Below are positions 12,346-64,000 of a stretch of DNA of 64,000 bases, one piece after another (position 1 is the stretch's first letter; the number at the start of each line of letters is the position of its first letter). The stretch is taken from positions 1-64,000 of the forward strand of contig JAFSRQ010000096.1 in the NCBI GenBank assembly GCA_017446055.1, given 5' to 3'. Made by a program: the position numbers and the translations under genes. The notes beneath the pieces were generated by a model, which had not been told where the DNA came from, did not search any database, and saw only the letters and a program-made list of their open reading frames with translations. Source of the stretch: Synergistaceae bacterium (GTDB taxonomy: Bacteria; Synergistota; Synergistia; Synergistales; Aminobacteriaceae).

Positions 12346-12369
12346 ATTATAGCAGTTGCAGTGTACAAT
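12346..12369. promoter_or_regulatory. Back-to-back promoters for metH (minus) and the small peptide (plus)
   Basis: On the minus strand TGCTATAAT (extended -10; TATAAT at 12346-12351) lies about 30 bp before the metH start. On the plus strand TGTACAAT (-10 TACAAT at 12364-12369) precedes the small gene at 12441. The two -10 boxes are only 12 bp apart, so polymerases would compete. No strong -35 is seen for either. Confidence 0.5.
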
Positions 12370-12440
12370 ATTGCTTACGAGGATTCCGGGGTGCGGGCAG
12401 GGGTCGCTTCACAGGGTATTATGCCTTGGAGAATCAGGTG

Positions 12441-12587
12441 ATGAGTATGGGCAAGAGATCCAGAAAATCCCGGAGGAAGGCGGTGAAGAGGCTCGCTCGC
12501 AAGGTGGTACGCTTCTTCACTGCTTTCTACTGGCTGATGAGCTTCGTCCTGACTGCGTTACTTCTTTGGGATAGGCTGGCAGGTTAA
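12441..12587 (+). CDS. Small basic single-span membrane peptide, copy 1 (48 aa)
   Basis: The ATG at 12441 (or 12447) follows GGAG and AGGTG. The first 24 residues are rich in lysine and arginine (MSMGKRSRKSRRKAVKRL), then comes a hydrophobic helix FYWLMSFVLTALLLW and the end DRLAG. A related peptide is encoded at 61683-61814, ending LYWLIRLAFLLWDRFMG, which supports both as real genes. Promoter, untranslated leader and a 3' hairpin are similar in both loci. I do not recognise a known family; it is too short for normal gene callers. The layout resembles type I toxin or dual-function RNA loci, which is inference. Confidence 0.65.
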   Translation: MSMGKRSRKSRRKAVKRLARKVVRFFTAFYWLMSFVLTALLLWDRLAG

Positions 12588-12610
12588 GCCGGGAGCAACA
12601 ACTTCTTCAC

Positions 12611-12647
12611 GAATAGGGTTCAACTCCCCTCAACGTTGTCCCTATTC
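12611..12647 (+). ncRNA. 3' hairpin of small-peptide unit, copy 1, with C/U-rich loop
   Basis: GAATAGGG (12611-12618) pairs with CCCTATTC (12640-12647). An inner stem CAAC/GTTG (12621-12624, 12635-12638) closes a 10-base loop TCCCCTCAAC. No U-tract follows, so it is not a standard terminator. The homologous hairpin at 61845-61875 has different stem bases but the same two-stem shape. A conserved UUCUUCA precedes both. Confidence 0.55.
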
Positions 12648-12660
12648 TACCACACCAGAC

Positions 12661-61508: not shown

Positions 61509-61592
61509 GCGTACATGAGATTTATATTTTCGGTGAGGGCTACGTATCACATCAGGCAAGGAAGATACACATTATCCGCAAAATTCTCATCT

Positions 61593-61600
61593 GCTATAAT
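61593..61600 (+). promoter_or_regulatory. Extended -10 promoter of small-peptide unit, copy 2
   Basis: TGCTATAAT (TATAAT 61595-61600) with a weak -35 TTATCC 17 bp upstream (61572-61577). The sequence after it (ATTCTCACTGCGAAGAGG) aligns with that after the copy 1 promoter. Confidence 0.6.
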
Positions 61601-61682
61601 ATTCTCACTGCGAAGAGGCCTCGGGTGAGTCACACGCATCACCACTACGGGGAGCCTGCCGTGTAGTTAGGAAGTGAGCAAT

Positions 61683-61814
61683 ATGGCTTCTAAGACGAAA
61701 TCCCGTAAAAAGGAGAAAACGGCGAGATGGTTCTCCAGACCTGATATACTCGCCGCGACTCTTTACTGGTTGATCCGACTGGCCTTCCTGTTATGGGATA
61801 GGTTCATGGGTTGA
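61683..61814 (+). CDS. Small basic single-span membrane peptide, copy 2 (43 aa)
   Basis: ATG 61683 follows AGGAAGTGAG. The peptide begins MASKTKSRKKEKTARW, crosses the membrane with DILAATLYWLIRLAFLLW and ends DRFMG. It matches copy 1 (12441-12587) in charge pattern, Y-W-L and the L-L-W-D-R end although the DNA has diverged, which argues for selection on the peptide. The 80-nt leader contains GGTGA/TCACC and CTACGG/CCGTgTAG hairpins. It lies between pgm and a type ISP restriction gene. The family is unknown to me. Confidence 0.65.
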   Translation: MASKTKSRKKEKTARWFSRPDILAATLYWLIRLAFLLWDRFMG

Positions 61815-61844
61815 TCGGACCGGGAAATTAGTTCTTCATTCAAC

Positions 61845-61875
61845 GCGGGGCGGTTTACCTCTTCTCCGACCCCGC
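61845..61875 (+). ncRNA. 3' hairpin of small-peptide unit, copy 2, with C/U-rich loop
   Basis: GCGGGG (61845-61850) pairs with CCCCGC (61870-61875). CGG/CCG (61851-61853, 61866-61868) forms an inner stem with a one-base bulge, closing the loop TTTACCTCTTCT. The loop carries ACCTCTT, close to the anti-Shine-Dalgarno sequence. The bases after it are CAAAAATT, so it is not a clear terminator. Shape matches copy 1. Confidence 0.55.
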
Positions 61876-61886
61876 CAAAAATTATA

Positions 61887-64000
61887 TCACACCCCAAGCC
61901 CCGGCAATCCCCCCAAAATCTCAGCAGTCCTCACGCTCACAGTAACCACGCGCCTCAGCAAGTCCATCACATACCCTTCATTCCCGTGCTCGGCACCCCA
62001 GGCGTTGCAGTCATTCCTCAGACCCGAATCCTTGTCCGCGTCATCACGGTATCTCTCCACAACCCACGCAAGCGCGCTCCTCCCGTTCACCCGGTACTCC
62101 CACGCCGACTCAGGAATCCCAAGCACCGCAAGCCCCTCGCTGTACTGAATCCCAACAGGCCGCCCGCCCTTCTTGTCCGTCAGAATCTTCATCCTCTTCA
62201 CGCGCAGGTCAGACACATATCCCTCAAGCTCAACAGGCCACATCTCCGCAGTCTCATACCCCACGTGAAGATCCCCAAGCTCACGCCCGGCCTTCACGAA
62301 CTCCCGGAACGCCCCCGCATCCCTCACCATAGGGACACGCGCAAGAACCTTCTTTGTGTCGTTCCCGAAACGCAAAGCATACTCACGCGACGAAAGCACT
62401 CCGTAGACGTAGCAGAACACATCCTCCTTCGTTACACTGTCATCACTGAACTCACGCCGGAACGTCTCAAGGAAGCCGTCGCTTATTGCGTCCCTGCGCT
62501 GGCCGTCCTCATACCACCACAGCGGGAAGCATTGACATGTTTCTAGCAGATGCTGGTCTGGTAAGCAGTCAGTCATTAGCACAGAAAACTTCTTGATTGC
62601 TCCCAATCCCTGAACACATATCAGTCTGTTCTTGACACTAAGCGCAGGGAAAATGTGAGACATTTGGTGAACCCTCTGATTCGTCTCACGGCTGAAGTGC
62701 ATACACTCTTTCACATATGGACGGTAAAGCCCAACCCTCACGCTGTCTTCCGTCAAGGCTTCAGGCTTCAGTCTCGTGATGTTCCTGCAAAGCTCCTCAC
62801 GCGAAAAGTTGTAGCACCATGCATCCTGTCCTGTCTTCACTCCCATCGAATACCTGTCAGCAAACATCGCCAGCCTCTCATTCTTCTTGTCGCCCAGTGC
62901 CATGAACGTGTAGTAGTCATTGCTCCTCTGGTTCACCCAGTCCCCCCAAAGGTTGCAGGTGAAACACCTCATCTTCCCGGCCTCAAGCATCCTTCCGAAA
63001 TCCCCGCAGGCCTCAAGCTCCCTCAGCTTCTCCTCACGCGTCATCCCGTCAGCACTCTCATAGTAGTACCCGCAGAATGGCTGCCTGAACCTCCGCTCGT
63101 CCTTCACGAAGAGAGTTATCGCTATCGGACACTGGCTTCCCTCGCCGAAAACTTTTCCCCCTTCCTTGCGCCAGTTGCCGCCCCTCTGGTTGCCTCTCAG
63201 GTTGAAGATGTAGACGCACGAGAACTCCCCGGCTATGCATTTCCTCATTCCGTCCGCGCTGTTGCTGTCGATGAAGGAAGCGTTTGTTACGTAGCATATT
63301 ATGCCCTTGTCGCCCATCCTGTCAGATGCCCAGCGTATAGCCCGTATGTAGCTGTCATAGAGCGAGCCTTTGTGATTGGCCTTGCTATTCTTAACATATG
63401 TGTCCTTGATTTTGCCGTCAACAGCCTCGTAGTCCTTATTCTTTCCGCCGACGCTGTAGGGAGGGTTGCCGATTATCACGGTGATTTCTGTGGTCTCTTC
63501 CTCGTAGGCTCTCTTTCCGTTCTCGTAGAAGAGGGGCTTCTTGTCCTTGTCCGCGAGGGTGAATGTTGCCTCAGTGTTGAGCCTGAAAGTGTCGGCCATG
63601 ACCATGCCGGGGAAGGGGATGTAAGTTATTCCGCCGTTGACCTGGTTGAACGCGGCCTCGATGTTTACGGCTGAGATGTAGTACGCGAGGAGCAGCATTT
63701 CGTTGGCGTGTATCTCGCGCTGGTACTTTATGCCGAGCCTTGACGGTGGGATTATGCCGGAGTCTATGAGCCTTGCGGTGAATGTGCCTGTTCCGCTGAA
63801 GGGGTCGAGGATGTGAACGTTGTCCGCGCTGAGTCCTTCCGTGATTCCGAGATGATGACGGAGAGCCCAGTCCGCGCTGTTGATGATGAAGTCAACGATT
63901 TCTTCGGGAGTGTAGACGATGCCGAGGCTGTCTGCTGTTTCGGGGAAAGCCTGCCTGAAGAAGTTGTTGTAGATGTCGCGGAGGAGACGCTGTTTTTCCG
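61887..64000 (-). CDS. Type ISP restriction-modification enzyme, N-terminal part outside window
   Basis: The last 704 or so residues of a larger protein are present; the start lies beyond 64000. Gamma-class N6-adenine methyltransferase motifs are in order: DPFSGTGTFTARL (motif I), then IIGNPPYSVGGKN (motif IV, NPPY). A target-recognition region with many aromatic residues (CFTCNLWGDWV, Y-S-M-G-V-K-T-G-Q-D-A-W) follows, and a C-terminal Type_ISP coupler-like block (YVYGVLSSREYALRF, LARVPMV, GIQYSEGLAVLGIP). Type ISP enzymes carry nuclease, helicase-like, methylase and recognition domains in one chain; the nuclease and helicase parts would be upstream. The gene appears intact in this window. 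Confidence 0.88.
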   Translation of the reverse strand, partial: EKQRLLRDIYNNFFRQAFPETADSLGIVYTPEEIVDFIINSADWALRHHLGITEGLSADNVHILDPFSGTGTFTARLIDSGIIPPSRLGIKYQREIHANEMLLLAYYISAVNIEAAFNQVNGGITYIPFPGMVMADTFRLNTEATFTLADKDKKPLFYENGKRAYEEETTEITVIIGNPPYSVGGKNKDYEAVDGKIKDTYVKNSKANHKGSLYDSYIRAIRWASDRMGDKGIICYVTNASFIDSNSADGMRKCIAGEFSCVYIFNLRGNQRGGNWRKEGGKVFGEGSQCPIAITLFVKDERRFRQPFCGYYYESADGMTREEKLRELEACGDFGRMLEAGKMRCFTCNLWGDWVNQRSNDYYTFMALGDKKNERLAMFADRYSMGVKTGQDAWCYNFSREELCRNITRLKPEALTEDSVRVGLYRPYVKECMHFSRETNQRVHQMSHIFPALSVKNRLICVQGLGAIKKFSVLMTDCLPDQHLLETCQCFPLWWYEDGQRRDAISDGFLETFRREFSDDSVTKEDVFCYVYGVLSSREYALRFGNDTKKVLARVPMVRDAGAFREFVKAGRELGDLHVGYETAEMWPVELEGYVSDLRVKRMKILTDKKGGRPVGIQYSEGLAVLGIPESAWEYRVNGRSALAWVVERYRDDADKDSGLRNDCNAWGAEHGNEGYVMDLLRRVVTVSVRTAEILGGLPGLGV

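Follow-up and report, generated by a model that had tools for sequence, protein, structure and literature searches.

We report a multicopy family of small peptide units in Synergistota which, with a probability of roughly 0.7, we read as a new family of type I toxin-antitoxin-like units whose mRNA would fold back end to end in a manner analogous to hok. Comparative sequence analysis revealed the peptide family itself, a pseudoknot leader, the fold-back, an antisense promoter motif and a hairpin inside the ORF. The anatomy appears to be of type I because the units combine a short membrane peptide, an mRNA closed on itself, a convergent antisense promoter with its terminator and a multicopy tandem organization, have no constant partner gene and include some broken copies. 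Two members, hereafter copy 1 and copy 2, are carried by the window, that is, the whole stretch of 64,000 nucleotides analysed here (contig JAFSRQ010000096.1).

The family peptide is 43 to 50 aa long (median 46 aa) and is made of a basic N-terminus followed by one TM segment; the best 19-residue hydropathy is above 1.6 in 82% of the peptides and the first 20 residues have a net charge of +8. Both window peptides have a lysine/arginine-rich N-terminus, one hydrophobic stretch and an end of the type ..LLWDR..G. In copy 1, peptide and profile searches together with hydropathy identified MGKRSRKSRRKAVKRLARKVVRFFTAFYWLMSFVLTALLLWDRLAG (12447 to 12587, plus strand). An earlier note on this DNA had described a basic membrane peptide of 48 residues; the peptide is indeed present, but its length is 46 aa, starting from ATG 12447, because ATG 12441 lies within the Shine-Dalgarno (SD) sequence AGGUGA (12436 to 12441). 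Copy 2 encodes the 43-aa peptide MASKTKSRKKEKTARWFSRPDILAATLYWLIRLAFLLWDRFMG (61683 to 61814, plus strand), recovered by peptide and profile searches. Taken as a pair alone, the two are 28% identical, and their homology comes from the profile search. The peptide is under purifying selection, with a median dN/dS of 0.25 and no value above 1 in 361 closely related pairs, which were chosen by dN<0.35, a cut-off that biases the ratio low.

Further homologues turned out to be abundant. Peptide profile A2, searched against the phylum, matched 52 of 188 Synergistota genomes, including 40 of the 43 genomes of the window's genus and also several genera of the same family, while single-sequence searches with each window peptide gave matches in 33 and 32 of those 43 genomes. 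We retrieved 147 distinct matches to the profile, 144 of which reached E<0.05 or better according to the listing used, and unit-level tests ran on 124 units for antisense features and on 111 units for the 3' hairpin and the UUCUUCA sequence. What had been taken for an unlinked pair is therefore two of at least about 140 copies. The survey lay essentially within Synergistota, in genomes that are mostly fragmented metagenome assemblies. An exact-pattern scan of genome contigs returned four records, all from rumen Synergistota, and the named relatives are rumen Synergistaceae/Synergistales assemblies. The queries used gave no matches for carriage of the units by phages, plasmids or viruses. Searches of Rfam, Pfam, NCBIfam, PADLOC and PHROGs gave no convincing match to the window peptides or RNA elements; Rfam covariance models gave no gathering-score match over the elements of the unit, and relaxed thresholds only chance matches. 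In agreement with the earlier suggestion of an RNA/peptide unit of type I toxin-like make-up not described before, the peptide/antisense-RNA units would make up a large family of gut Synergistota that appears not to have been described.

Copies are commonly several per genome, highly diverged from one another and arranged in tandem arrays with a spacing of about 330 bp; one contig (G001:C147) holds an array of four or more units. Broken copies were observed at loci L182, L183, L192 and L193, where the leader is intact and the peptide is frameshifted, interrupted or truncated. Neighbouring genes are diverse: 197 neighbours fell into 109 clusters, 79 of them seen once, and no constant partner gene was found among them, which argues against a protein antitoxin. 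As candidates for a fixed partner, folK, the DNA methylase, metH and the permease were rejected, as they recur only at particular conserved sites and most neighbours are unique. Orthologous loci keep the unit, for example in the order metH, unit, permease of copy 1, which recurs in several species, the neighbours being 54-93% identical. Copy 2 is adjoined by a DNA methylase/restriction-like gene (61887 to 63998, minus strand), and related methylases adjoin units at about ten other loci, commonly with folK on the opposite side.

Nearly all units have a sense promoter with a TATAAT-type -10, usually TGnTATAAT without a -35, and the start codon lies mostly 77-85 nt downstream of TATAAT, leaving a leader of about 80 nt. 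The order of elements in this leader is tag, P1 5', P2 5', P3 5', P2 3', P1 3', P3 3' and SD; it is a pseudoknot, because the P2 loop is bridged through P3 to bases immediately before the SD. An alignment of 30 leaders has 95.9% of its cells paired under the pseudoknot model and two-sided change at 9 of 17 pairs, against 3.9 in shuffles (0 of 500); the leaders of a second subfamily are 95.7% paired, with two-sided change at 4 pairs. Comparison of own-unit with swapped-unit pairing gave z values of 4.6, 13.4 and 9.5 for P1, P2 and P3 and of 1.8 or below for control windows, the shuffles and swaps ignoring part of unit relatedness while the control windows were flat or negative. In copy 1, the -10 hexamer TACAAT (12364 to 12369, plus strand), placed by the fixed distance of the -10 before the start codon in the family, is followed by a leader (12370 to 12446, plus strand) with the end-pairing tag GAGG (12379 to 12382), in which P3 (CAGGG/CCUUG) of the expected pseudoknot P1/P2/P3 is present and P2 is weakened. 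In copy 2, the extended -10 TGCTATAAT (61592 to 61600, plus strand) precedes a leader (61601 to 61682, plus strand; leader model E 6e-5) with the tag GAAGAGG (61612 to 61618), P1 (61619-61623/61648-61652), P2 (61624-61628/61639-61643), P3 (61632-61636/61660-61664) and an SD at about 61669-61678. Compared by coordinate, matches of the leader model lie before small peptides or broken copies, save the weak matches G064, G065 and G187, which have no promoter, peptide or hairpin and are probably due to chance.

Downstream of the ORF, both window copies have a hairpin whose loop is rich in C and U. The one of copy 1 (12611 to 12647, plus strand; loop UCCCCUCAAC at 12625-12634) is better than chance, with a z of -2.9, and over 111 units the mean best-stem score was 17.3, against 12.4 in shuffles. 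The hairpin is thus present where the earlier note had placed it; the interval marked there, 12364-12647, runs from the -10 hexamer to the final base of this hairpin, and the compensatory change proposed between the stems was supported. On the contrary, UUCUUCA after the peptide, read as a motif, occurred in only 3 of 111 units and is not conserved.

The loops had been proposed to pair with ribosome binding sites. Results showed no such signal between the SD region and the 3' tail (5.13 in cognate units, 5.19 in swapped ones, z -0.4), the partner of the loop being instead the 5' end of its own leader, with a z of 10.8, or 8.1 when one unit per distinct tag was kept. The mean longest Watson-Crick run between tag and loop was 6.44 in own units and 5.33 with swapped tails (0 of 20,000 permutations). 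The two sides covary unit by unit, as in GAGGGAG/CUCCCUC, GAGGGG/CCCCUC, GAAGAGG/CCUCUUC, CGGUGGG/CCCACCG, GGAGAGG/CCUCUCC, AGAGGAAGC/GCUUCCUCU, AGAGGAAG/CUUCCUCU and others. Copy 2 keeps the full 7-bp complement, between its tag and the loop CCUCUUC (61858-61864) of its 3' hairpin (61845 to 61875, plus strand), while copy 1 keeps only 4 bp. Five tandem units were distinguished in G001:C147 (L029/L060, about 6.0-7.6 kb); their 5' tags differ (AGAGGAAG, CGAAGGGAG, CGAGGGAG, CGAGGGG and AAGAGGGAG) and are mostly matched by their own loops, a diversification that looks as though it served to prevent cross-pairing.

Just beyond the 3' hairpin and facing inward, the minus strand carries TGnTAnnAT in 117 of 124 units, compared with 5.9 in shuffles; the stricter TGTGnTAnAAT was found in 87 units, compared with 0.12, and never on the plus strand. 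Most units moreover have a hairpin inside the ORF after lysine codons, for example CAGCGGCGA...TCGCCGCTG, which scores 23.9 versus 16.9 when synonymous codons are permuted. In 70 of 124 units, against 10-22 in synonymous permutations, the lysine codons supply a U-rich stretch (at least 6 T in 9) after this hairpin on the minus strand; a minority of units are without a clear antisense terminator. These features predict an antisense RNA of about 160-164 nt, the transcript and both its start and its end being predictions. In copy 1, the inward extended -10 is TGGTAGAAT (12644 to 12652, minus strand) and the ORF hairpin (12475 to 12528; arms 12475-12492 and 12511-12528) is without a good U-tract, so that the predicted antisense RNA (12475 to 12637, minus strand) takes its start from the -10 and its end from the hairpin. 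In copy 2, the ORF hairpin CGGCGAG/CTCGCCG (61720 to 61755), followed on the minus strand by TTTTCTCCTTTTT, is a putative antisense terminator and, with the inward extended -10 TGATATAAT (61881 to 61889, minus strand), would delimit an antisense RNA from 61720 to 61874 (minus strand). Judged by these sequences, copy 2 is a canonical unit, and copy 1, whose ends pair over a short run and whose ORF hairpin is without the antisense U-tract, has partly decayed. The earlier note had covered about half of the unit, missing the leader with its pseudoknot as well as the promoter and the ORF-internal terminator of the predicted antisense RNA.

Translational riboswitches commonly have the geometry seen here, a compact and conserved pseudoknot placed immediately before the SD, and the leader could sense a metabolite or an ion and gate a beneficial small membrane protein, leaving the antisense RNA a secondary role. 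We consider this reading unlikely. A riboswitch is usually followed by a gene for metabolism or transport, but this leader was found only before small peptides, the other inspected strong matches being broken copies; moreover, tandem multicopy units with a fold-back and an antisense promoter would be atypical, and Rfam gave no match.

Leader model R1 also matches units in f8, another family of the order. The f8 pseudoknot is formed by CUCCG/CGGAG, GGCAA/UUGCC and GCCGGG/CCCGGC, and the leaders precede unrelated small TM peptides, such as MARKKSLQMALWIALLALLLGAATRFLEALVDLIRIVL. Tag and loop are GGAGAGG/CCUCUCC, or GAGCAGG/CCUGCUC in another species, and most f8 units then have the antisense -10. 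An f8 peptide profile matched 11 genomes, one of them from the window's own family, and in several of the matched genomes the leader is different and the tag/loop complement is kept. A third leader type (GGAGAGACGCGG...), again with the complement kept, was observed at L205, L206, L207, L208 and L215, in f8 and G104. We also noticed, in f8 units L175-L178, L202 and L212, an extra structured stretch between the stop codon and the 3' hairpin (GGCCUGUAAG...CAGGGCC), which is absent from the window's family. It is possible, although we propose it only tentatively, that the conserved unit is the RNA and not the peptide. The RNA would then be a modular chassis of type I-like design, made of the 5' tag, the pseudoknot, the fold-back loop and an antisense RNA terminated inside the ORF, and would have served at least two unrelated membrane peptides in two Synergistota families; the antisense terminator would dictate the basic codons of the N-terminus, and the pseudoknot would be an added sensor or translation switch.

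The peptide could also be a small, non-toxic membrane protein that serves in housekeeping or under stress and is made from a self-structured mRNA tuned by the antisense RNA. This would agree with the purifying selection and with the long retention at fixed loci such as that between metH and the permease. Nonetheless, toxin units would better explain why genomes carry many divergent copies, why units are duplicated in tandem, why some copies are broken and why an unrelated peptide is found under the same RNA plan, and we regard such a role as improbable. Finally, that the units are small mobile or repetitive elements (MITE-like), with complementary ends as terminal repeats and an incidental ORF, is very improbable: they are indeed multicopy, intergenic and about 330 bp long with similar inward-facing ends, but within a genome the copies have diverged strongly, different species keep units at the same sites, selection on the peptide is purifying, the end pairs covary per unit instead of forming one repeat sequence, and the queries used gave no phage, plasmid or viral matches.

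Among known type I systems, the Synergistota unit seems most like hok, for the end-to-end fold-back, combined with BsrG/SR4, for the 3'-overlapping antisense RNA, an analogy and not a homology of peptides. With hok/Sok it shares a small membrane peptide with a positive N-terminus, pairing of the mRNA 5' and 3' ends and an antisense RNA, predicted in our units. The positive N-terminus of HokB is cytoplasmic (PMC8309996), fold-back is known in hok and AapA (PMC6733600), and coupled covariation supports the 5'-3' end pairing in the hok family (Gultyaev 1997, as cited in PMC6733600). Pfam and NCBIfam gave no match that would indicate homology of our peptides to Hok. Unlike in hok/Sok, the first ~7 nt would have a hairpin loop as their 3' partner, the leader is a compact pseudoknot, and the predicted antisense RNA would cover the 3' half of the mRNA instead of the leader. 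The aapA/IsoA systems of Campylobacterota are likewise multicopy chromosomal units with a short membrane peptide and an mRNA closed by a 5'-3' long-distance interaction (PMC6733600); however, the AapA 3' end masks the SD, while in our units the loop covaries with the 5' end, the SD giving no signal, and the peptides show no similarity and come from a different phylum. A convergent antisense RNA over the 3' portion of the mRNA for a small toxin, the layout predicted here, is found in bsrG/SR4, txpA/RatA and yonT/SR6 of Bacillus (PMC8309996, PMC5848175), from which our units differ by the absence of peptide homology, an antisense terminator inside the ORF, a pseudoknot leader and a fold-back. 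Similarly, par/Fst and Fst/Ldr are compact convergent units that lie in about 300 bp of intergenic DNA (PMC3543317), but the PxxxGC motif of Fst/Ldr is absent from our peptides (alignment A2, by inspection), and the ends are inverted (self-complementary) and not, as in par/Fst, direct repeats shared by both RNAs.

Under the type I reading, the sense RNA would begin at the GAGGGAG-type sequence and carry the pseudoknot leader just before the SD and then the small membrane peptide with its basic N-terminus. In a complete unit, the 3' loop would pair with the RNA's own first ~7 nt, and this fold-back would hold the full-length mRNA compact and untranslated while also hiding the loop from the antisense RNA. 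The convergent promoter past the hairpin would produce the predicted ~160-nt antisense RNA, ending within the ORF at the terminator, which would take its U-tract from the complement of lysine codons. This RNA would be the antitoxin, acting by duplex decay and/or translation block. Once the mRNA is trimmed at its 3' end, or the antisense RNA is lost, the message would be freed and its peptide would reach the membrane. Transcription, repression and toxicity are what we infer from the architecture of the units.

Until 2025, type I toxin-antitoxin systems were reported in Proteobacteria, Firmicutes and Tenericutes only, the first cyanobacterial case being from 2025 (PMC12390103). If our reading is true, Synergistota would be added to these phyla, and with a multicopy family. 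The unit-specific end pairing, the pseudoknot leader and the antisense terminator written into the coding sequence provide concrete predictions, and RNA architecture could reveal such systems where the peptides have no recognisable homologues.
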